DNA from: Cellulomonas flavigena DSM 20109
Lineage (GTDB): Bacteria > Actinomycetota > Actinomycetes > Actinomycetales > Cellulomonadaceae
Direction of reading: 5' to 3'
Length of the DNA stretch: 64,000 nucleotides
Assembly: GCF_000092865.1 (NCBI RefSeq)
Contig: NC_014151.1
Span: forward strand, 1,922,001-1,986,000
Shown here: piece after piece, positions 6,393 to 20,575 of the stretch
Numbering within the stretch: position 1 is the first letter of the stretch
Layout of the letters: the number at the start of each line of letters is the position of its first letter
Notes under the pieces: model-generated
Told to the model about the DNA's origin: nothing
Seen by the model: the letters and a program-made list of their open reading frames with translations, nothing else
Databases searched by the model: none
Translations under genes and position numbers: made by a program

Positions 6393-7613
6393 TCAGGCGC
6401 GGGTCGAGCCTGCGGCCGGGCCGAGCGCCGCGGCCAGCGCCGCGACGTGCCCCACGACGATCACCGCGGGGTTGCGCACACCGCCCTCGGCCGCGCGTGC
6501 GGCGATGTCGGCGACGGTCCCCAGCGTCGTGCGCTGCGTCGGCAGCGTGCCCTTCTCGACGACCGCGACGGGCGTCGCCGGGTCCAGTCCGTGCGACACG
6601 AGCAGTGCCATGTGCTCGTCGAGCCGGCTGACGCCCATGAGCAGCACCAGCGTGCCGCGCAGGCGCGCCAGGGTCTCCCAGTCCGTGTCCGCGTCGTGCG
6701 CCGAGACGATCGTCACCTGCCGTGCGACGTCCCGGTGCGTCACCGGCACGCCTGCGGCGCCGGGCACGGCGATCGCGCTGGTCACCCCGGGGACGACCGC
6801 GACGTCGACGCCGGCCTCGAGGCACGCGGCGAGCTCCTCGCTGCCACGGCCGAGGACGAACGGGTCGCCGCCCTTGAGCCGCACGACGCGCTGACCGGCG
6901 CGCGCCCGCTCGACGAGCAGGGCGTTGATCTCGGCCTGCGTGAGGGTGTGCGCGTGGGGCGCCTTGCCGGCCTCGACCACCTCGACGTCGGGCTCGAGCT
7001 CGTCGAGCAGCGCGCGCGGGGCGAGGCGGTCGACGACGACGACGTCCGCCTCGGCGAGCGCGCGCCGCCCGCGCGTCGTGATCAGGCCGGGGTCGCCCGG
7101 CCCGCCGCCGACCAGGGTGACGTGCCCCGGCCCCGGCCGGCGGTGCCGCAGCGGCAGCGCACCGGTGTCGAGCTGCACCTGCAGCGCCGAGCGCAGCGCG
7201 ACCGCGCGGCGCGGGTCGCCGCCCGCGTTGACGGCGACCGTGACGTCGCCGGCGCGCGCGACCGCGGGCGTCCAGGCGGTCGACGCCGACGCGTCGTCGG
7301 CCCGCACGCACCAGGTGCGCGCCGCCTCGGCGTCGGCCGCGACCGCGTCGTCCGCGCGGCGCTCACCGGTGGCCGTGTGCACGAGCCACGCGCCGTCGAG
7401 GTCCCCGCGCACGTACTGCCTCGCGTGCCACGTGAGCGCACCGGTCGCGGCGAGGTCCGCGAGGTCCTCGCACAGCGCGGGCGCGACCACGTGCACGTCG
7501 CCACCGTCGGCGAGCATCCCGCGGGCGCGCCGTGCCGCGACCGGCCCGCCGCCGACCACCACGACCCGGCGCCCGGTCAGGTCGAGCAGCAGCGGGTGCT
7601 GCGGGCTGCTCAT
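6393..7613 (-). CDS. cysG: Sirohaem synthase: precorrin-2 dehydrogenase/ferrochelatase fused to uroporphyrin-III methyltransferase (copy 1)
   Basis: A 406-residue fusion. Residues about 1-160 form the NAD-binding Met8/CysG_N domain (RRVVVVGGGPVAARRARGML); residues about 170-400 form the SAM-dependent methyltransferase with VTLVGGGPGDPGLIT, GKAPHAHTLTQAEIN, RLKGGDPFVLGRGSEE and VVPGVTSAIAVPG. It turns uroporphyrinogen III into precorrin-2 and on towards sirohaem, the prosthetic group of the sulfite reductase at the head of this operon. The start overlaps the cysN stop (ATGA). A second, divergent copy lies in the nirBD operon (55746-57026), so each sirohaem enzyme has its own cofactor gene. Confidence 0.93.
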   Translation of the reverse strand: MSSPQHPLLLDLTGRRVVVVGGGPVAARRARGMLADGGDVHVVAPALCEDLADLAATGALTWHARQYVRGDLDGAWLVHTATGERRADDAVAADAEAARTWCVRADDASASTAWTPAVARAGDVTVAVNAGGDPRRAVALRSALQVQLDTGALPLRHRRPGPGHVTLVGGGPGDPGLITTRGRRALAEADVVVVDRLAPRALLDELEPDVEVVEAGKAPHAHTLTQAEINALLVERARAGQRVVRLKGGDPFVLGRGSEELAACLEAGVDVAVVPGVTSAIAVPGAAGVPVTHRDVARQVTIVSAHDADTDWETLARLRGTLVLLMGVSRLDEHMALLVSHGLDPATPVAVVEKGTLPTQRTTLGTVADIAARAAEGGVRNPAVIVVGHVAALAAALGPAAGSTRA

Positions 7614-9040
7614 ATCCCGGCCCCGGCGAGCCAGTCGTCGTCGCGCTCGTCGGCGCGCACCGGCACCAGGCGGTCGAGCAGCGTGGGACCGATCAGCCCG
7701 GCCGCGAGCGTGCTGCCGTCCGCCGGGTCGACGACGAGGAAACCGCCCGTGCGCCGGTGCGTCGCGTAGTCGTCGAGGACGACCGGCTCGGCGAGCCGCA
7801 GCCGCAGCCGTCCGATCGCGTTGAGGCCGAGCGAGCGCGGCGCGGCCTCCGTCGAGGTGTCCGTCGCGTCGATCGTCTGCACCGTGTCGACCGGGTCCCA
7901 CTGCTCGACGGTCAGCGTGTCGACGTCGAGGCGCGCGTCGACCTCCCGCAGCAGGCCGCGCACCGTGCGGGTCCCCACGCGCACGAGCACGCGGGCCCCG
8001 CTGACCGATCGCCGCTCGGTGAGCCAGCAGACCGTGCCGACGAGGTCCTGGCCCGTCGTGACCTGCTCGCCCGCAGGCACGAGCACGTCGCCGCGCGCCA
8101 CGTCGAGGTCGTCCGCGAGCCGCACCGTCACCGAGCGCGGGGCCTCGGCCGCGGCGAGCGGGCCGTCGAACGTGTCGATGCCGACCACGCGGCTGGAGCG
8201 CCCCGACGGCAGGACGCGCACCTCGTCGCCGACGCGCACGACACCCGAGGCGACCTTGCCCGCGTACCCGCGGTAGTCGGGGTGCTCCGGTGTGCGCGGG
8301 CGGATGACGTACTGCACGGGCAGGCGCAGCGGCTCGGCCGTGGCGTCGCGGGCGACGGGCACGGCCTCGAGGAGCTCGAGCAGCGTCGGCCCGTCGTACC
8401 AGGGTGCGCGCGGGGAGCGGTCGACGACGTTGTCGCCGTCGAGCGCCGACAGCGGCACGCACGTCACGTCCGGCAGGCCCAGGACGCGTGCGTAGTCGGT
8501 GAACTCGGCGGCGATCGACCGGAAGGTGGCCTCGTCGAAGCCGACGAGGTCCATCTTGTTGACCGCCAGCACGACGTGCGGCACGCCGAGCAGCGCGGTC
8601 AGGGCCGCGTGCCGGCGCGTCTGCTCGAGCACGCCCTTGCGTGCGTCGACCAGCACGATCGCGAGCTCGGCCGTGGACGCGCCGGTGACCATGTTGCGCG
8701 TGTACTGCACGTGGCCGGGCGTGTCCGCGAGCACGAACGCCCGGCGGGCGGTCGAGAAGTAGCGGTAGGCGACGTCGATGGTGATGCCCTGCTCGCGCTC
8801 GGCGCGCAGGCCGTCGGTGAGCAGCGCCAGGTCGACGCCCGTGCCGTCGCCGCCGCGTGCCGCGGTCGCGCGCTCCACGGCCGAGAGCTGGTCCGCGAGC
8901 ACCGACTTCGTGTCGTACAGCAGACGGCCGATGAGCGTGCTCTTGCCGTCGTCGACCGACCCGGCGGTCGCCAGACGCAGCAGGTCGCGCTGCGTGTGGT
9001 CGTCGGTCGGTGCGACGAGCTCGGGTGCGTGCGTGCTCAT
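7610..9040 (-). CDS. cysN: Sulfate adenylyltransferase subunit 1 (GTPase)
   Basis: A 476-residue translational-GTPase-family subunit of ATP sulfurylase. GTP-binding motifs are clear: G1 GSVDDGKSTLIGRL, G3 DTPGH, G4 NKMD, plus the EF-Tu-like beta-barrel domains after about residue 240. With CysD it makes adenosine 5'-phosphosulfate from sulfate and ATP, driven by GTP hydrolysis. The length indicates CysN alone, without the C-terminal APS kinase (CysC) found in some fusions; since CysH here looks like an APS reductase, APS kinase would not be required. Its ATG shares a base with the cysD stop (TGATG). Confidence 0.96.
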   Translation of the reverse strand: MSTHAPELVAPTDDHTQRDLLRLATAGSVDDGKSTLIGRLLYDTKSVLADQLSAVERATAARGGDGTGVDLALLTDGLRAEREQGITIDVAYRYFSTARRAFVLADTPGHVQYTRNMVTGASTAELAIVLVDARKGVLEQTRRHAALTALLGVPHVVLAVNKMDLVGFDEATFRSIAAEFTDYARVLGLPDVTCVPLSALDGDNVVDRSPRAPWYDGPTLLELLEAVPVARDATAEPLRLPVQYVIRPRTPEHPDYRGYAGKVASGVVRVGDEVRVLPSGRSSRVVGIDTFDGPLAAAEAPRSVTVRLADDLDVARGDVLVPAGEQVTTGQDLVGTVCWLTERRSVSGARVLVRVGTRTVRGLLREVDARLDVDTLTVEQWDPVDTVQTIDATDTSTEAAPRSLGLNAIGRLRLRLAEPVVLDDYATHRRTGGFLVVDPADGSTLAAGLIGPTLLDRLVPVRADERDDDWLAGAGI

Positions 9041-9993
9041 CAGAAGTACCCCTCGCGCTTGCGGTCCTCCATGGCGGCCTCCGAGGCCCGGTCGTCCGCG
9101 CGGGTAGCTCCGCGCTCGGTGAGCCGGCTGGCGGCCACCTCGGCGATGACGTCCGCGACGGTCGCGGCCGTCGAGTCGACGGCGCCCGTGCAGCTCATGT
9201 CGCCCACCGTGCGGTACCGGACGCGGCGGCGCTCGACCTGCTCGTCCGGGCGCGGCCCGCCCCAGTCGCCGGCGGTCAGCCACATGCCGTCGCGCGCGAA
9301 CACGTCGCGCTCGTGCGTGAAGTAGATCGAGGGGAGCTCGATGCGCTCGCGCTCGATGTACCGCCACACGTCGAGCTCGGTCCAGTTCGACAGCGGGAAC
9401 ACGCGCACGTGCTCGCCAGGCTTGTGGCGCCCGTTGTACAGGTCCCACAGCTCCGGGCGCTGCCGCCGCGGGTCCCACTGCCCGAACTCGTCGCGCAGCG
9501 AGAACATCCGCTCCTTGGCGCGCGCCTTCTCCTCGTCGCGGCGCCCGCCGCCGAACACGGCGTCGAAGCGGTGCGCGGTGATCGCGTCGAGCAGGGGCAC
9601 GGTCTGCAGCGGGTTGCGCGAGCCGCCCGGACGCTCGACCACGCGGCCGTCGTCGATGGCCTCCTGCACGCTCGCCACGACGAGCCGCAGGCCCAGCTCG
9701 GCGACGACGCGGTCGCGGTACTCGATGACCTCGGGGAAGTTGTGCCCGGTGTCGACGTGCATGACCGGGAACGGCACCGGGGCGGGCCAGAACGCCTTGC
9801 GCGCCAGGTGCAGCATGACGATCGAGTCCTTGCCGCCCGAGAAGAGCAGCACGGGGCGCTCGAACTCGCCGGCGACCTCGCGCATCACGTGGATGCCCTC
9901 GGACTCCAGTGCGTCGAGCTGGGTGAGTCGCCCCGGGGCGGGTGTGAGGTCCGCGTCGTCCGTGCCGGTGGAGGAGGGGAGGGTCGTCGTCAT
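9040..9993 (-). CDS. cysD: Sulfate adenylyltransferase subunit 2
   Basis: A 317-residue PP-loop ATP pyrophosphatase family subunit. The ATP-binding SGGKDS motif is in PVLLFSGGKDSIVMLHLA; other family blocks are HVDTGHNFPEVIEYRD, GGGRRDEEKARAKER, FPLSNWTELDVWRYI and the C-terminal RYRTVGDMSCTG...RASEAAMEDRKREGYF. It catalyses adenylation of sulfate with CysN. The ATG overlaps the cysH stop (ATGA), and its own stop overlaps cysN, so cysH-cysD-cysN are translationally coupled. Confidence 0.97.
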   Translation of the reverse strand: MTTTLPSSTGTDDADLTPAPGRLTQLDALESEGIHVMREVAGEFERPVLLFSGGKDSIVMLHLARKAFWPAPVPFPVMHVDTGHNFPEVIEYRDRVVAELGLRLVVASVQEAIDDGRVVERPGGSRNPLQTVPLLDAITAHRFDAVFGGGRRDEEKARAKERMFSLRDEFGQWDPRRQRPELWDLYNGRHKPGEHVRVFPLSNWTELDVWRYIERERIELPSIYFTHERDVFARDGMWLTAGDWGGPRPDEQVERRRVRYRTVGDMSCTGAVDSTAATVADVIAEVAASRLTERGATRADDRASEAAMEDRKREGYF

Positions 9994-10709
9994 GTGTGCA
10001 GCCCGCATTCCGTCTTGTTCGTGCCTGCCCAGCGCCCTGCGCGGGGGTCCTCGCCCGGTGCCACCGCGCGTGTGCACGGGGCGCAACCGATCGAGGCGTA
10101 CCCGAGCTCGCGCAGGGGGTTGAGGACCACGTGGTGCTCCGCGACGTACGCGTTGACGTCGTCCCACGTCCACGCAGCCAGGGGGTTGAGCTTGACCTTG
10201 GAGCGTCGGGCGTCCCACCCGACGACCGTGATGTCGGTCCGTGTCGGGGCGTCCTCGCGGCGCATGCCGGTGACCCATGCCGTGTACGGCGCCAGCGCAC
10301 GCTCGAGCGGTTCGACCTTGCGCAGCGCGCAGCACAGGTTCGGGTCGCGCTCGTGCAGCCGTGGTCCGTGCTCGGCGTCCTGCTCGGCGACCGTGCGCAG
10401 CGGCAGGACCGTCCGCAGGTTCACGTCCGTGAACTCGGCGTAGTAGTCCCGCGTGCCGATCGTCTCCGCGAAGTGGTAGCCGGTGTCGAGGAAGACGACG
10501 TCGATGCCGGGAGCAGCCGTGGCGGCGATGTCGACGAGCACCTCGTCACCCATCGACGACGCGAGCACGAGGTCGGAGCCGAAGACGTCGCGCGCCCAGC
10601 GCAGCACGTCCGCGGGGTGCGCGCCCTCGAGGTCGCGCCCCGCCTGCTCGGCGAGCGCGCGGAGCTCGTCGGGGGACAGCGCGGACACGGGTCCGGTGGT
10701 CGTGGTCAT
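9990..10709 (-). CDS. cysH: Assimilatory adenylyl-sulfate (APS) reductase
   Basis: A 239-residue reductase producing sulfite from activated sulfate with electrons from thioredoxin. The PP-loop-derived region has VLASSMGDEVLVDI and FLDTGYHFAETIGTRDYY. Both cysteine pairs of the iron-sulfur type are present, CC in DPNLCCALRKVEPL and CxxC in GCAPCTR, and the catalytic cysteine lies in the C-terminal TECGLH. The two pairs bind a [4Fe-4S] cluster in APS reductases and are absent in cluster-free PAPS reductases, so APS is the likely substrate. The stop overlaps cysD; the start overlaps the stop of the upstream zinc-ribbon gene (ATGA). Confidence 0.95.
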   Translation of the reverse strand: MTTTTGPVSALSPDELRALAEQAGRDLEGAHPADVLRWARDVFGSDLVLASSMGDEVLVDIAATAAPGIDVVFLDTGYHFAETIGTRDYYAEFTDVNLRTVLPLRTVAEQDAEHGPRLHERDPNLCCALRKVEPLERALAPYTAWVTGMRREDAPTRTDITVVGWDARRSKVKLNPLAAWTWDDVNAYVAEHHVVLNPLRELGYASIGCAPCTRAVAPGEDPRAGRWAGTNKTECGLHT

Positions 10710-10867
10710 CGCGTCGCCACCAGCCCGACGAACCGCAGCGCGAACGCACGCGTGCAGCCGCGGCACTCCCACTGCCCGTGCGTCTCGCCGGCGGGCCACA
10801 GGTCCTCGCCGCCGCAGAACGGGCAGTAGTAGGGCACGGCGCGCTGTGCGGAGCCGCCCTCGCTCAT
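10706..10867 (-). CDS. Small zinc-ribbon protein of the sulfate-reduction operon
   Basis: A 53-residue protein dominated by two CxxC pairs (YYCPFCGGEDLW and WECRGCTRAFAL), the layout of a single zinc ribbon. It is translationally coupled on both sides: ATGA with the sulfite reductase gene upstream and ATGA with cysH downstream. A small cysteine-rich ORF at this place is common in actinobacterial sulfite-reductase operons, which argues that it is a real gene. Its function is unknown; the cysteines might carry Zn or Fe-S and serve as an electron or cluster partner for sulfite or APS reductase, but this is speculation. Confidence 0.8.
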   Translation of the reverse strand: MSEGGSAQRAVPYYCPFCGGEDLWPAGETHGQWECRGCTRAFALRFVGLVATR

Positions 10868-12534
10868 CGCAGGTCCTCCTCGTCGGCGCGCTGCACCCAC
10901 TGGGCGAACAGCTCGCCCGGCTCACGCTGCTCGTCGAACCGGCGCGTGACCCGCTCGACGTAGTCGGGCAGCTCGGAGGACGGCACGCGCAGGCCGCGCA
11001 GCGTGCGGCCGAGGCCGCTGGTCGTGGCCAGCCCGCCGCCGAGGTGCACCTGGTAGCCCTCCTCGTCACCGGCCAGGACACCCTTGAGGCCGATGTCGGC
11101 GGTCTGGATGCGCGCGCACGAGTTGGGGCAGCCGTTGACGTTGATCGTGATCGGCTGGTCGAACGTCGGCAGCCGGCGCTCGAGCTCGCCGACCAGGCCG
11201 GTCGCGCGCCCCTTGGTCTCGACGATCGCGAGCTTGCAGAACTCGATGCCGGTGCAGGCCATCGTGCCCCGGCGGAACGGCGAGGCGGTGCGCACCCGCA
11301 GGCCCAGCGACTCCAGCCCGTCGACCAGCGCGTCGACGCGGTCCGCCGCGACGTCCAGCACCACGAGCTTCTGCTCGGTGGTGAGCTGCACGCGGTCGGA
11401 CCCGGCCTCCTCGACGAGGTCCGCCAGTGCGGTGAGGACCGGGCCCGAGACGCGACCGACGGTGGGCGCCGCGCCCACGTAGAAGCGGCCGTCCTTCTGC
11501 GGGTGCACGCCCACGTGGTCCCGGTTGCCGTGCGGCGGGGGCGGCGGTGGGGGGCCGTCGGCGAGCGCGTAGCCCAGGTACTCCGTCTCCAGCACCTGGC
11601 GGAAGACCTCGGTGCCCCAGTCCGCGAGCAGGAACTTCAGGCGGGCCCGGGTGCGCAGCCGGCGGTAGCCGTAGTCCCGGAAGATGCCGACCACGCCGCA
11701 CCACACGTCGGGCACCTGCTCGAGGGTGACGAACGCACCGAGGCGCTTGCCCAGCATCGGGTTGGTGGACAGCGCGCCGCCGACCCACAGGTCGAAGCCG
11801 GGGCCGAGCTCGGGGTGGACGACGCCGACGAACGCGACGTCGTTGATCTCGTGCGCGACGTCCTGGTGGGGCGACCCGCTGATCGCCGTCTTGAACTTGC
11901 GCGGCAGGTTCGAGTAGGCGGGGTCGCCGATGTAGCGCTCGCGGATCGCCTCGATCGCGGGCGTGCCGTCGATGATCTCGTCGGCCGCCACGCCCGCGAC
12001 GGGCGACCCGAGGATGACGCGCGGCACGTCGCCGCACGCCTCCTGCGTGGTCAGGCCGACCGACTCCAGCCGGCGCCAGATCTCCGGGACGTCCTCGACG
12101 CGGACCCAGTGGAGCTGGATGTTCTGCCGGTCGGTGATGTCCGCGGTGCCGCGGCCGAACTCCTGCGAGATCCCCGCGACGGTGCGCAGCTGCCGCAGGT
12201 CCAGCGAGCCGCCGTCGCAGCGCACGCGCAGCATGAAGTACTCGTCCTCGAGCTCGTGCGGCTCGAGGGTGGCGGTGCGCCCGCCGTCGATACCGGGCTT
12301 GCGCTGGGTGTACAGGCCCCACCAGCGCATGCGGCCGCGCAGGTCGTCGCCGGGGATCGACGCGAAGCCCTCGCGGGCGTACACCGTCTCGATGCGCTCG
12401 CGGACGTTGAGCCCGTCGTCGGCCTGCTTGAGCGCCTCGTTGGCGTTGAGCGGCTCGCGCTGGTCGAAGGCCCACTGGCCCTCGGGGCGCTTGGCCGGCG
12501 GGGCGGTGGGGGGTCGGGACGTCGTCTGCGCCAT
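10864..12534 (-). CDS. sirA: Ferredoxin-dependent sulfite reductase (sirohaem, [4Fe-4S])
   Basis: A 556-residue haemoprotein of the nitrite/sulfite reductase family that reduces sulfite to sulfide by six electrons. The sirohaem-[4Fe-4S] cysteines are in TMACTGIEFCKLA and NVNGCPNSCARI; substrate-pocket blocks include GGRTATLEPHELEDEYFMLR and ITDRQNIQLHW. Tyr in WWGLYTQR and Cys in TQEACGDVPR correspond to the crosslinked pair known in mycobacterial SirA. A run of seven prolines (about residue 330) is an unusual loop. I choose sulfite over nitrite as substrate because the gene heads a cysH-cysD-cysN-cysG operon. The ATG has a GGAGGTG ribosome site; a cysteine-rich leader ORF precedes it. Confidence 0.92.
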   Translation of the reverse strand: MAQTTSRPPTAPPAKRPEGQWAFDQREPLNANEALKQADDGLNVRERIETVYAREGFASIPGDDLRGRMRWWGLYTQRKPGIDGGRTATLEPHELEDEYFMLRVRCDGGSLDLRQLRTVAGISQEFGRGTADITDRQNIQLHWVRVEDVPEIWRRLESVGLTTQEACGDVPRVILGSPVAGVAADEIIDGTPAIEAIRERYIGDPAYSNLPRKFKTAISGSPHQDVAHEINDVAFVGVVHPELGPGFDLWVGGALSTNPMLGKRLGAFVTLEQVPDVWCGVVGIFRDYGYRRLRTRARLKFLLADWGTEVFRQVLETEYLGYALADGPPPPPPPHGNRDHVGVHPQKDGRFYVGAAPTVGRVSGPVLTALADLVEEAGSDRVQLTTEQKLVVLDVAADRVDALVDGLESLGLRVRTASPFRRGTMACTGIEFCKLAIVETKGRATGLVGELERRLPTFDQPITINVNGCPNSCARIQTADIGLKGVLAGDEEGYQVHLGGGLATTSGLGRTLRGLRVPSSELPDYVERVTRRFDEQREPGELFAQWVQRADEEDLR

Positions 12535-12642
12535 GGGCGCCACCTCCGGGGGATGCTGGGGGCACGTGCTCACGCGGCCGCGCACGACGTCAGGTCGTGG
12601 TGACGGGCGCGGACCACGCGCCCGTGGGGGGAACGGGGCTGG
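12535..12642 (-). promoter_or_regulatory. Leader between poly-Cys uORF and sirA, with attenuator-like hairpin
   Basis: This 108-base stretch separates the uORF stop from the sirA ATG. It contains a perfect 9-bp GC stem with a 5-base loop (ACGGGCGCG...CGCGCCCGT, 12603-12625) starting 17 bases after the uORF stop, then the sirA ribosome site GGAGGT. The beginning of the uORF contains ACCTCC, complementary to that ribosome site. The layout fits an attenuator in which ribosome progress over Cys codons decides the fold. No T-run follows the stem, so control of translation or Rho access is more likely than an intrinsic terminator. The mechanism is inference. Confidence 0.5.
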
Positions 12643-12726
12643 TCAGCGGTTCCGCGGACAGCAGGCACACGGGACCGCGGCGGCGCGACAGCACCGACAC
12701 AGACGGCGGTTCCCGGGGAGGTTCAC
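12643..12726 (-). CDS. Cysteine-rich leader peptide upstream of sirA-cysHDN
   Basis: A 27-codon ORF starting GTG: VNLPGNRRLCRCC followed by RAAAVPCACCPRNR. Six of 27 residues are Cys, in two clusters (CRCC and CACC), extraordinary for this cysteine-poor genome. CAGGCT lies 6 bases before the GTG, the same spacing as the leaderless promoters of moaE and zapE in this window. In mycobacteria poly-cysteine leaderless short ORFs are known to act as cysteine-responsive attenuators upstream of sulfur genes; the position here, upstream of the sulfite reductase operon, matches. When Cys-tRNA is scarce, ribosomes would stall on the Cys codons and raise downstream expression. The peptide itself probably has no function. 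Confidence 0.65.
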   Translation of the reverse strand: MNLPGNRRLCRCCRAAAVPCACCPRNR

Positions 12727-12869
12727 GGGACGAGCCTGGCACGCGGACGGGTGAATCGGGAGTCCGTGTCCGGATCGCGAGACCTGTGTCCGATCGGTGG
12801 ACGCGCGTCCAGGTCCAGGTCAGCCGTCCGGACCGGGACCTCGGTCGCTGGATACCAGGTCGTGGGACG

Positions 12870-12875
12870 TATCGT
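12870..12875 (+). promoter_or_regulatory. -10 element of zapE (leaderless)
   Basis: TATCGT lies exactly 6 bases before the GTG at 12882, the spacing that puts the transcription start on the start codon. Together with the divergent sirA leader, it accounts for the 347-base gap 12535-12881, in which I see nothing else except the uORF and hairpin. Confidence 0.5.
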
Positions 12876-12881
12876 CTCCTC

Positions 12882-13973
12882 GTGACCCCGGACCCTGCCG
12901 CGCACGCGGCCGACCCCGCACGCACGCTGCCGTCGCTCACCGTCCGCCACCCGCGGGTCGCCCCCTCCCGACTGCTCGCCGAGCTCGTCCCGCCCCGGCA
13001 CTTCGCGCGCGAGTCGTTCGACACCTACCGCCCGGACCCCGCCCACCCCTCGCAGCAGCGGGCGCTCGAGCGGCTGCGCGAGGTCGCCACGACGCTGAGC
13101 GAGCCGGCGCGCGGCGGCGGCGCGTGGTGGCGTCGACGCGCGGCGTCCCGCACCCCCGCGGTCTACCTCGACGGCGGCTTCGGTGTCGGCAAGACCCACC
13201 TGCTGGCGTCGCTCGCGCACGCCGTCGGCCCCGCGCGCACCACCTACGGCACGTTCGTCGAGCTCACGCACCTCGTCGGTGCGCTCGGCTTCGCGGCCAC
13301 GGTCGACGCGCTCGGCGAGCGGCGTCTGCTGTGCATCGACGAGTTCGAGCTCGACGACCCCGGCGACACCGTGATGATGTCGCGCCTGCTGCGCGAGCTC
13401 ACCGACCGCGGCGTGGCGATCGCCGCGACGTCCAACACGCTGCCGGGGTCGCTGGGCGAGGGGCGGTTCGCCGCCGAGGACTTCCTGCGCGAGATCCAGG
13501 CGCTCGCGGCGCGCTTCGAGGTGCTGCGGATCGACGGCGAGGACCACCGGCACCGCGCGGTCACCACCCACGCCGCGAGCCTGACGCCGCACGACGTCCG
13601 GGCCGTGGTCGCCCGTCGCGACGGCGCCACGCTCGACGACCTCGACACGCTCCTCACGCACCTGTCGACCGTCCACCCGAGCCGGTACGGCGCGCTGCTC
13701 GACGGCATCGACCTCGTCGGGCTCACGGGCGTGCGCCAGGTCGACCGGCAGGACGTCGCGCTGCGTCTCGTCGTCCTCGTCGACCGGCTGTACGACCGCG
13801 ACGTGCCCGTCGTGCTGTCGACCGACGCGGGCGCCGCAGGCACGGCCGACCTCTTCACACCCGAGATGCTCCGGGGCGGCTACCGCAAGAAGTACTACCG
13901 GGCGCTGTCACGGCTCGGCGCGCTCGCGGCCGAGGGCGCCGCGCTCGCGCAGGACGACCGACGCACGACCTGA
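12882..13973 (+). CDS. zapE: Cell division protein ZapE / AFG1-like ATPase
   Basis: A 363-residue P-loop ATPase of the AFG1/ZapE family. Walker A is DGGFGVGKTHLLASL, Walker B is RLLCIDEFELDDPGD, sensor-1 lies in VAIAATSNTLPG, and the family ending TPEMLRGGYRKKYYRALSRL is present. In E. coli ZapE associates with the Z ring; in actinobacteria the role is less defined. The frame is open for 95 more codons upstream, but that part is low-complexity and unconserved; the GTG at 12882 with its leaderless -10 gives a typical family length. It converges with treZ, separated by 14 bases. Confidence 0.9.
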   Translation: MTPDPAAHAADPARTLPSLTVRHPRVAPSRLLAELVPPRHFARESFDTYRPDPAHPSQQRALERLREVATTLSEPARGGGAWWRRRAASRTPAVYLDGGFGVGKTHLLASLAHAVGPARTTYGTFVELTHLVGALGFAATVDALGERRLLCIDEFELDDPGDTVMMSRLLRELTDRGVAIAATSNTLPGSLGEGRFAAEDFLREIQALAARFEVLRIDGEDHRHRAVTTHAASLTPHDVRAVVARRDGATLDDLDTLLTHLSTVHPSRYGALLDGIDLVGLTGVRQVDRQDVALRLVVLVDRLYDRDVPVVLSTDAGAAGTADLFTPEMLRGGYRKKYYRALSRLGALAAEGAALAQDDRRTT

Positions 13974-18386: not shown

Positions 18387-20575
18387 GCGCCGCGCCGCGA
18401 GACGCGGCTGGCCTCGGACGACGCGGCCACGGCGGCGCCGGTGCCGGACGCGGTCGGCAGCTCGCGCTCCGACGGGCGTGTCAGCAGCACCATCGACCGC
18501 GGCGCGAGCGTGACCCTCCCGCGCGAGCGCACCTTGCGGCCGGGGGCGACCTGCGAGTCGGTGTCGAGCACTGCGGTCCACTCCGCGCCGTACTCGGCGC
18601 CGGGCAGCTGGAACTGCTTCTTCTCCCAGTGGCTGTTGAACAGCAGCAGGAACGAGTCGTCGACGACCTCCTCGCCGCGCAGGTCGGGCTCGTCGATCGC
18701 GTCGCCGTTGAGGAACACCATGACCGCGAACGCGTGGTCCGAGCTCCACGCCTCGTCGGACATGTGCCCGCCGGTCGGCGTCATCCACGCGATGTCCCGC
18801 AGGTCCGACTCGCCGCCGTGCTCGGCGGCGCCCGCGAAGAACCGGCGCCGCCGGAACACGGGGTGGTCGCGGCGCAGGTGGATCACGCGGCGCGTGAACT
18901 CCAGGAGCGACTGCCGGTCCTCGTCGAGGTCCCAGTCGACCCAGGTGATCTCGTTGTCCTGGCAGTAGCCGTTGTTGTTGCCGCCCTGCGTGCGGCCGAG
19001 CTCGTCGCCGTGCGCGACCATCGGCACGCCCTGCGACAGCAGCAGGGTCGCGAGGAAGTTGCGCTGCTGACGCGCGCGCAGCTTGCGCACCTCCGGGTCG
19101 TCGGTCGGGCCCTCGACGCCGCAGTTCCACGAGCGGTTGTGGCTCTCGCCGTCGCGGTTGTCCTCGCCGTTGGCCTCGTTGCTCTTCTCGTTGTAGGTGA
19201 CGAGGTCGCGCAGCGTGAAGCCGTCGTGCGCGGTGACGAAGTTGATGCTGGCGATGGGCCGGCGGCCGGTGTGCTCGTACAGGTCGGAGGAGCCGGTCAG
19301 ACGGCTCGCGAACTCCCCGAGCGTCGAGGGCTCACCGCGCCAGAAGTCGCGCACGGTGTCGCGGTACTTGCCGTTCCACTCCGTCCACAGCGGGGGGAAC
19401 CCGCCGACCTGGTAACCGCCCTCGCCGAGGTCCCACGGCTCGGCGATGAGCTTGACCTGCGAGATCACCGGGTCCTGGTGGACGAGGTCGAAGAACGCCG
19501 ACAGCCGGTCGACCTCGTGGAACTGCCGGGCGAGCGTGGCTGCGAGGTCGAACCGGAAGCCGTCCACGTGCATCTCGGTCACCCAGTACCGCAGCGAGTC
19601 CATGATGAGCTGCAGGACGGCGGGCGAGCGCATGAGCAGCGAGTTGCCCGTGCCCGTGGTGTCGAAGTAGTGCGACGGGTCGTCGTCCACCAGACGGTAG
19701 TAGCTGGCGTTGTCGATGCCGCGGAAGCTCAGCGTCGGGCCCATGTGGTTGCCCTCGGCGGTGTGGTTGTAGACGACGTCGAGGATGACCTCGATGTCGG
19801 CCGCGTGCAGGGCCTTCACCATCTGCTTGAACTCCTGCACCTGCTGCCCGGAGCCCGCCAGCGAGGCGTAGGCGTTGTGCGGGGCGAAGAAGCCGATGGT
19901 GTTGTAGCCCCAGTAGTTCGACAGGCCCTTCTCCTGCAGGGAGGGGTCGTTGACGAACTGGTGGACCGGCATGAGCTCGATCGCGGTGACGCCGAGGCCC
20001 GACAGGTGCTCGACGACGGCGGGGTGCCCGAGCGCGGCGTAGGTGCCGCGCAGCTCCTCGGGGACCGCGGGGTGCAGCTGCGTCAGGCCCTTGACGTGCG
20101 CCTCGTAGATGACGGACTCGTGGTACTGGTGCTCCGGCGGGCGGTCGTGGCCCCAGTCGAAGAAGGGGTTGACGACGACGGACGTCATGGTGTGTCCCGC
20201 TGAGTCGTCCTGGTTGCGCGCGTCGGGGTCGCCGAACGTGTACGAGTACAGCGACGGGTGGCCGTCGACCTGCCCGTCGATCGCCTTGGCGTAGGGGTCG
20301 AGCAGCAGCTTGGAGGGGTCGCAACGGTGCCCCGCGGCCGGGTCGTACGGGCCGTGCACGCGGAACCCGTACCGCTGGCCGGGCGCGATCGCCGGCAGGT
20401 AGCCGTGCCACACGAACGCGTCGACCTCGGGGAGGTCGACGCGGGTCTCGGTGCCGTCGTCGTCCACGAGGCACAGCTCGACACGTTCCGCCACCGCGGA
20501 GAACAGCGCGAAGTTGGTTCCCGTGCCGTCGTAGGTGGCACCGAGGGGGTAGGGGCGTCCGGGCCAGATGTGCAT
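18383..20575 (-). CDS. glgX: Glycogen debranching enzyme GlgX/TreX
   Basis: A 730-residue GH13 isoamylase-type debranching enzyme, cutting alpha-1,6 bonds of glycogen to feed linear dextrins to TreY. It opens MHIWPGRPYPLGATYDGTGTNFALFS (CBM48 domain); catalytic regions are ILDVVYNHTAEG, VDGFRFDLAATLAR (nucleophile Asp), KLIAEPWDLGEGGY (acid Glu) and NFVTAHDGFTLRD. The ATG at 20575 matches the usual family start; the frame remains open 20 codons upstream without conservation. The last 30 residues are an Ala/Ser-rich tail. First gene of the trehalose operon. Confidence 0.96.
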   Translation of the reverse strand: MHIWPGRPYPLGATYDGTGTNFALFSAVAERVELCLVDDDGTETRVDLPEVDAFVWHGYLPAIAPGQRYGFRVHGPYDPAAGHRCDPSKLLLDPYAKAIDGQVDGHPSLYSYTFGDPDARNQDDSAGHTMTSVVVNPFFDWGHDRPPEHQYHESVIYEAHVKGLTQLHPAVPEELRGTYAALGHPAVVEHLSGLGVTAIELMPVHQFVNDPSLQEKGLSNYWGYNTIGFFAPHNAYASLAGSGQQVQEFKQMVKALHAADIEVILDVVYNHTAEGNHMGPTLSFRGIDNASYYRLVDDDPSHYFDTTGTGNSLLMRSPAVLQLIMDSLRYWVTEMHVDGFRFDLAATLARQFHEVDRLSAFFDLVHQDPVISQVKLIAEPWDLGEGGYQVGGFPPLWTEWNGKYRDTVRDFWRGEPSTLGEFASRLTGSSDLYEHTGRRPIASINFVTAHDGFTLRDLVTYNEKSNEANGEDNRDGESHNRSWNCGVEGPTDDPEVRKLRARQQRNFLATLLLSQGVPMVAHGDELGRTQGGNNNGYCQDNEITWVDWDLDEDRQSLLEFTRRVIHLRRDHPVFRRRRFFAGAAEHGGESDLRDIAWMTPTGGHMSDEAWSSDHAFAVMVFLNGDAIDEPDLRGEEVVDDSFLLLFNSHWEKKQFQLPGAEYGAEWTAVLDTDSQVAPGRKVRSRGRVTLAPRSMVLLTRPSERELPTASGTGAAVAASSEASRVSRRGA

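Follow-up and report, generated by a model that had tools for sequence, protein, structure and literature searches.

A conserved cysteine-rich leader ORF and a putative ribosome-sensed attenuator upstream of the sulfite reductase gene row in Cellulomonas

The 64-kb window analyzed in this work (the whole stretch of DNA presented above) carries on its minus strand a row of genes headed by sirA (10864..12534), which encodes a nitrite/sulfite reductase family protein and is the first gene of a presumed operon; its product matched the NCBIfam nitrite/sulfite reductase models, all under the curated cut-offs. The sirA ATG at 12534 is preceded by the Shine-Dalgarno (SD) sequence GGAGGT (12542..12547, minus strand). 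The genes cysH, cysD, cysN and a siroheme synthase gene (6393..10703, minus strand) were recognized by NCBIfam matches, with the listed ORFs extending ahead of the matched part. As a nitrite/sulfite reductase is encoded here together with CysH, CysD, CysN and a siroheme synthase, this row makes sulfide for cysteine, and we infer that its genes are co-transcribed. Between sirA and cysH there is also a 64-codon ORF (10706-10900, minus strand) with CPFC and CRGC motifs, for which no NCBIfam match was obtained.

Upstream of sirA lies a short ORF, MNLPGNRRLCRCCRAAAVPCACCPRNR (12643..12726, minus strand), with a GTG start, 27 codons and a TGA stop. Its six Cys codons, starting at 12699, 12693, 12690, 12669, 12663 and 12660, form the clusters CRCC (12688..12699), variable in number and position among the relatives, and CACC (12658..12669), the final Cys codon of which is placed five codons before the stop. 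This is the ORF that the earlier note had described, and the other elements named there, i.e., a hairpin 17 bases after the ORF, the sirA SD, and an ACCTCC within the ORF start that is complementary to this SD (12717..12722, minus strand), were all found in their places. A -10-like hexamer, CAGGCT (12733..12738, minus strand), is located 6 nt before the GTG and, by eye, has TGN ahead, as in an extended -10. Further upstream of this promoter, a conserved operator-like motif, GTCTCGCGATCCGGAC (12768..12783, minus strand), was distinguished, with the consensus TCTC-N3/4-AT-N-CGGAC read by eye. The leader ORF is overlapped by a plus-strand ORF (12597-13973, zapE, opposite strand); as the ZapE match starts only at residue 140, near 13014, the leader ORF probably sits in the gap separating two divergent genes. 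The leader peptide of the window matched no Pfam or NCBIfam family, and no Rfam covariance model matched within 12500-12800 up to an E of 5, while at gathering scores three tRNAs were the only Rfam matches in the whole window.

For the comparative analysis, 60 Cellulomonas genomes (including the one that holds the window) were searched for SirA; 48 of them gave some match and 42 a full-length one, and the sirA upstream regions were inspected at all 42 full-length loci. Of these 42 genomes, 38 have ahead of sirA a Cys-rich ORF that starts with GTG or ATG, is 24-35 codons long and contains 4-8 Cys codons. A further locus (L040) has a leader of the RRHVDL type with three Cys, and at the remaining three among the 42 genus loci (L041-L043) no leader ORF was recognized as Cys-rich. 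SirA of these three loci is 72-73% identical, and sirA may represent a separate lineage there; at the ten loci of the nearest named Cellulomonas relatives SirA is 79-93% identical. An automatic criterion was also applied (12-60 codons, a final stretch of 14 residues that contains at least three Cys and a CC or CxC, and NANNNT 5-8 nt before the start), which selected 38/42 genus loci, against 2/840 dinucleotide shuffles; this count of 38 omits L039 and L041-L043 and takes in L040. Two ORFs of the 64-kb window pass the same criterion, the leader ORF and MSAACRAFTICLNSCTCCPEPASEA at 19793 on the plus strand, the Cys tail and -10 of which may be due to chance.

The check for conserved Cys codons that the earlier note had proposed came out in its favor, as Cys codons upstream of sirA persist and the remaining part of the ORF diverges. 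A Cys codon occupies position -5 from the stop in all 38 genus leaders, position -6 in 37 and position -7 in 24, and the C-terminal peptide is well preserved across the genus. In the nucleotide alignment of the genus, the gap runs inside the ORF are without exception multiples of three (89/89, against 25/432 behind the ORF), these runs not being independent events since related rows share gaps. The promoter spacing is equally regular, as a NANNCT hexamer is separated from the start by 6 nt in 36/38 leaders and by 7 nt in 2/38, where no start other than the one taken was available in 26 leaders, the choice between several starts relied in part on the hexamer spacing itself in 11, and one start (L013) was set by hand. 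This -10/start spacing agrees with the distances given for Streptomyces lividans in excerpts of PMC8079986. The core of the operator-like motif, AT.CGGA, occurs in 28/38 genus leaders and 25/41 leaders of the wider family (8/1580 shuffles), and in 26/38 genus leaders it is found at -49 from the start of the leader ORF.

Within the family, SirA was found in 93/121 genomes, genus members counted in, and the comparison covered 63 loci (L048-L110) of 62 genomes that do not belong to the genus. The automatic criterion revealed a leader at 41 of these 63 loci, against 1/1260 shuffles, and none at the other 22. The peptides of the family leaders differ (e.g., MTTAARTLLVTSRHGMPACAHTCLSCCR, ...STCCCCC and ...NSCRCC, with ends such as CCCC, CRCC or SCCR), and a perfect TANNNT is placed 6-8 nt before the start in 30/41 of them. 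Divergent peptides with retained Cys codons and leaderless spacing are the strongest sign that selection keeps the Cys codons and a leaderless-type start. The sequences thus support the supposition that another actinobacterial family has leader ORFs resembling the mycobacterial ones, Cys-rich and of the leaderless type but with a different peptide.

Several strands able to pair with one another follow the Cys codons, all on the minus strand. Segment 2 (GACCAGCCCCGT, 12633..12644), the proposed anti-hairpin strand, begins inside the stop codon and is complementary to the 5' arm and loop of the hairpin. This hairpin (12625-12603) is a perfect 9-bp stem with a 5-nt loop (ACGGGCGCG / TGGTC / CGCGCCCGT), of which segment 3 (12617..12625) is the 5' arm and segment 4 (12603..12611) the 3' arm, with segment 5 as its alternative partner. 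A variable stem, P3 (CACGACCTGACGTCGTG, 12583..12599), and segment 5 (GCGCGGCC, 12576..12583), which pairs with segment 4 in the full-length fold, come next, and the strand just before the sirA SD, another possible partner of segment 3, is referred to as segment 6.

The perfect hairpin of the earlier note was confirmed and it is conserved, albeit the full-length fold of the window leader favors another partner of segment 3, i.e., the strand next to the ribosome-binding site rather than segment 4. Among the genus leaders (39, in 38 distinct rows), 99.2% of the 265 cells of the 3:4 helix are paired; five of its seven pairs vary and, except for two unpaired cells, they do so by one-sided G-U exchange. 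The 2:3 helix is paired at GACC/GGUC in every genus leader with letters on both sides, and at 91.7% of its cells overall (25-53% in slid controls). The 2:3 duplex energy is -17.9, against -12.9 in composition shuffles, for 15 genus representatives, and -13.7 against -10.2 for 33 family leaders, where a median of 10% of the shuffles are equally strong. No double compensatory change was found in the genus alignment, because segments 2, 3 and 4 hardly vary, and the swap test was weak (p of 0.04 for 2:3, 0.02 for 3:4 and 0.16 for 4:5). The P3 region gave a best stem of at least 6 bp between segments 4 and 5 in 29/39 leaders (19% of shuffles), with 26 different stem sequences across the 39 leaders. 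The 4:5 pairs lie in different registers in two clades, and the MAFFT alignment is therefore unusable for counting them. As a whole, the fold of the window leader is barely more stable than its shuffles (z of -2.0, with 6/200 shuffles as good).

In the other genera of the family, the strand behind the stop often reads UGAyyCGCGCC and the hairpin contains GGCGCG(CG); 25/41 family leaders combine a hairpin motif with a segment-2 motif placed no more than 16 nt from the stop. In the family alignment, 61% of the 3:4 cells and 67% of the 2:3 cells are paired, the latter including one misplaced pair (30/96). Covariation is modest, as its score was reached by 19/500 shuffles for 3:4 and by 114/500 for 2:3, again with pair 30/96 misplaced. 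By eye, segments 2, 3 and 4 change together at L080 (CUCAG/CUGAG/CUCAG to CUCGG/CCGAG/CUCGG) and segments 2 and 3 at L094, which makes one or two events. Taken together, the complementarity and position of the proposed, mutually exclusive hairpin and anti-hairpin fit a switch set by a ribosome, and the covariation is weak.

Two further pairings were considered and rejected. Segment 4 is complementary to sirA codons 2-4 (GGCGCAGACC; -14.8, against -8.1 when shuffled), yet this site is nearly invariant, an own-versus-cross preference is absent and only 0.4-0.7 pairs form in the folds. Pairing of the Cys codons with segment 5 was likewise discarded for want of an own-versus-cross preference. As a separate observation, these sirA codons, GCG CAG ACC, are nearly invariant nucleotide by nucleotide in the genus alignment and are complementary to the sequence ahead of the ATG as well as to segment 4.

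The influence of ribosome position was modeled by equilibrium folding, with a mask that was placed at every codon and reached from 15 nt ahead of the start of the A-site codon to 12 nt past it. For RNAs ending behind the hairpin, the 3:4 helix of the 38 genus leaders comprised 2.8 pairs when the A site held the last Cys codon and 6.3 pairs when it held the stop codon, and 2:3 decreased from 5.5 pairs to 0; 3:4 was higher at the stop in 34/38 leaders and the switch was absent in 4/38. As 2:3 cannot form in this model once segment 2 is masked, these pair counts show a feasible geometry and not its occurrence. In full-length genus leaders 2:3 responded to ribosome position likewise, and in the window leader a longer arm (3:6, 4:5 and P3) replaced the hairpin. 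For the full-length leaders of other genera, 2:3 decreased from 4.6 pairs with the ribosome at the first Cys codon of the last cluster to 2.5 at the final Cys codon and 1.0 at the stop, values that refer to the 22/29 leaders in which the hairpin motif was found; 3:4 hardly changed (1.8 to 1.9 pairs) and never formed in several of them.

Based on these data, we propose for this region a cysteine-responsive leader-peptide attenuator acting on the sirA-cysH-cysD-cysN-siroheme synthase row, a reading to which we assign a probability of roughly 0.8. The ORF with its frame, Cys codons, promoter and stop spacing, as well as the hairpin and the complementarity, are conserved, and from these features we deduce how the row would depend on cysteine, in which direction it would respond and how 2:3 and 3:4 would switch. 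Judging from the promoter spacing, RNA polymerase would initiate at or beside the GTG, and with a transcript starting there a ribosome would load directly onto the 5' end and translate the poly-Cys ORF. When Cys-tRNA is ample, it would reach the stop codon and cover segment 2, which begins there, leaving segment 3 free for the 3:4 hairpin; in the finished leader, segment 3 might alternatively enter the longer arm formed by 3:6 and 4:5, the end of which directly precedes the sirA SD. With either structure formed, expression would fall. When Cys-tRNA is short, the ribosome would stall on the Cys codons, the last of which is always five codons before the stop, so that segment 2 could pair with segment 3, the repressive structures would be lost and expression would rise. 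The detailed course of the switch between 2:3 and 3:4, as predicted by folding, has in our opinion even odds of being correct, and its output may be transcription (by Rho or a terminator devoid of a U-tract) or translation.

A variant with the same cysteine sensor and a purely translational output, in which the stalled ribosome melts a structure hiding the sirA ribosome-binding site, appears to us somewhat less probable than even. Such an output is reported for the M. smegmatis polycysteine ORFs in excerpts of PMC9031893 and PMC13236596, and the leaders themselves offer several features consistent with it. The 3:4 helix lacks a U-tract in 39/39 leaders (UUU within 15 nt in 0/39), the start codon lies in a hairpin with a mean pair probability of 0.56, and 3:6, beside the SD, is lost in the window leader once a ribosome occupies the last Cys codon (from 8.7 to 0.6 pairs, with 2:3 at 6.9 pairs); over the 38 genus leaders the value for 3:6 is 3.3 pairs for a ribosome at the stop, against 1.7 for one at the last Cys codon. 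However, the predicted exposure of the SD is constant across ribosome positions (0.25-0.28 in the 38 genus leaders and 0.31-0.34 in 29 leaders of other genera), and unmasking of the SD through stalling gave no signal in these 38 + 29 leaders. Moreover, with a ribosome placed on the last Cys codon, pairing of the ORF start with the SD region grows from 1.1 to 2.1 pairs, and this pairing is not conserved. The pairing of ACCTCC with the SD, to which the earlier note had drawn attention, is present in one fold of the leader and absent from the longer one. The complementarity of the ORF start to the SD amounts to -13.7, against -10.8 in composition shuffles (sd 2.7), but CCTCC within 24 nt of the start occurs in only 13/38 leaders and there is no own-versus-cross preference (permutation 0.39), which argues against this pairing as a general mechanism.

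More tentatively, the output could be Rho-dependent: Rho would be loaded on the naked C-rich and G-poor stretch after the stop of the leader ORF, and a ribosome stalled on the Cys codons, together with the 2:3 pairing, would hide this stretch. It contains 73% C and 11% G from the stop to the hairpin (48% C and 30% G in the leader behind the ORF, the ORF itself being balanced), and excerpts of PMC1262725 suggest Rho for actinobacterial cys leaders. Nevertheless, this short stretch extends over only about 20 nt ahead of the hairpin, and its richness in C could be compositional. Far less probable is a small Cys-rich protein with a function of its own, such as metal or thiol binding, and no role as a leader. 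Two Cys clusters and a C-terminal peptide well kept in the genus would suit it; the length of 24-35 codons within the genus, the lack of a Pfam or NCBIfam family, and peptides that differ outside the genus while the Cys codons, position and leaderless spacing stay speak against it. Finally, a chance ORF in GC-rich sequence, an idea to which the second ORF of the window that passes the automatic criterion (19793) lends something, is ruled out by genus and family conservation far over the shuffles and by gaps that keep the frame in 89/89 runs.

The Cys-rich leader ORF at sirA has a counterpart elsewhere in the same genome, which encodes six genes of the PALP family; we count this counterpart, like the sulfide-forming role of the genes behind the sirA leader, in favor of the attenuator. 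A poly-Cys ORF, MRVPTAAVAPVLRACVACCRCR, is placed 257 nt upstream of the ATG of one of them, cysK (L112, contig position of about 1,544,390); since it is preceded by the SD sequence GAGGAG, this leader is not of the leaderless type. No NCBIfam model matched its peptide. Among 30 chosen relatives (25 of the genus and five of the family, L197-L226), an SD-led poly-Cys ORF was found before cysK in 25, against 1/600 shuffles, and their peptides mostly end with CCRCR or CCRCL. At the other five PALP loci of this genome no candidate leader was recognized by eye. The Cys-rich short ORFs listed at the SulP and cysS loci were rejected by eye, being intragenic or on the other strand and thus not placed as leaders, and the sulfate-binding-protein family TIGR00971 gave no match in this genome. 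We put forward, rather speculatively, a wider picture in which Cellulomonas and related genera would keep cysteine synthesis under a ribosome-sensed set of operons, with a leaderless poly-Cys ORF at sirA and an SD-led one at cysK. The sirA leaders would then contain a U-tract-free switch anchored at the stop codon, in which segment 3 chooses the stop-codon strand, its hairpin partner or the strand at the ribosome-binding site, and the same stalled ribosome could control transcription and then translation.

At the loci L127-L196 (Streptomyces and a few others), a leader of the RRHVDL type lies upstream of sirA in 56/70 cases; 45 of these 56 leaders contain one Cys, ten contain two and one contains three. 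This type matches NCBIfam NF042934 (cut-off of 27 bits), with 32.6 bits for the genus locus L040 and 32.9 bits for the Streptomyces locus L128. As RRHVDL leaders occur before sirA of the Streptomyces group and also at L040, the Cellulomonas leader may have been derived from an old leader by enrichment in Cys.

Cys leader peptides were predicted in 2005 before cys operons of Mycobacterium and Propionibacterium acnes and before cbs of Bifidobacterium longum, as given in excerpts of PMC1262725, and conserved Cys-rich leaderless upstream ORFs in mycobacteria were described in 2015 (PMC4633059, excerpts). Cys-responsive attenuation has been shown in M. smegmatis according to excerpts of PMC9031893, PMC9094748 and PMC13236596. 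As a side observation, the S. lividans metL leader (upstream of metNIQ) has CMCRRMC near its end in the excerpts of PMC8079986 and may respond to Cys, not Met. In the titles and abstract beginnings of the open-licence literature, no such leaders were found for Cellulomonas or its family.

The leaders described here would add a second actinobacterial family, with different peptides, to the mycobacteria in which Cys-sensing leader ORFs have been demonstrated experimentally. The graded series at sirA, with mostly one Cys at the Streptomyces loci and several here, makes the evolution of an attenuator traceable, and the competing strands make the action of U-tract-free actinobacterial leaders (through the ribosome-binding site, Rho or a hairpin) testable in soil bacteria. 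Short ORFs of this type are easily missed in annotation.

Canestrari et al. (2020) reportedly described Cys-responsive attenuation by polycysteine leaderless short ORFs in M. smegmatis. The sirA leaders resemble these mycobacterial ORFs in being leaderless-type and short, with clustered Cys codons, and in preceding sulfur-assimilation genes, but here there are two Cys clusters and conserved competing strands starting from the stop codon, the predicted SD exposure is unchanged, and a further leader, that of cysK, is SD-led. The statement of the earlier note that this is the same idea in a different family holds for the family and the peptide and understates the part already known, as NCBIfam already contains NF042936, the Ms4527A Cys-rich leader, which we take to be the leader of the M. 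smegmatis sirA. The window peptide did not match the NF042936 profile (cut-off of 45 bits), below which L040 and a Streptomyces leader scored 26.4 and 28.2 bits. The 'putative leader peptide' family NF042934 (cis_reg_atten, LV.RRHVDL, Streptomyces) also stands before sirA and, by eye, has similar promoter spacing, but mostly a single Cys (45/56), and its profile (cut-off of 27 bits) gave no match to the window peptide either. In transcription attenuators of the trp/his type, regulatory codons, a stop codon and the competing 2:3 and 3:4 helices follow one another in this order. The same elements in the same order are found here, whereas a U-tract after the hairpin is absent from every one of the 39 leaders. 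The candidates in the excerpts of PMC1262725 share with the leaders analyzed here the runs of Cys near the stop codon and the absence of a U-tract terminator; a conserved hairpin was not seen there, as far as those excerpts go, and here both the hairpin and its competing strand are conserved. The kind of leader is thus known, and what the present analysis appears to add is the peptide itself, the family in which it occurs, the conservation of the competing strands and the leader before cysK.
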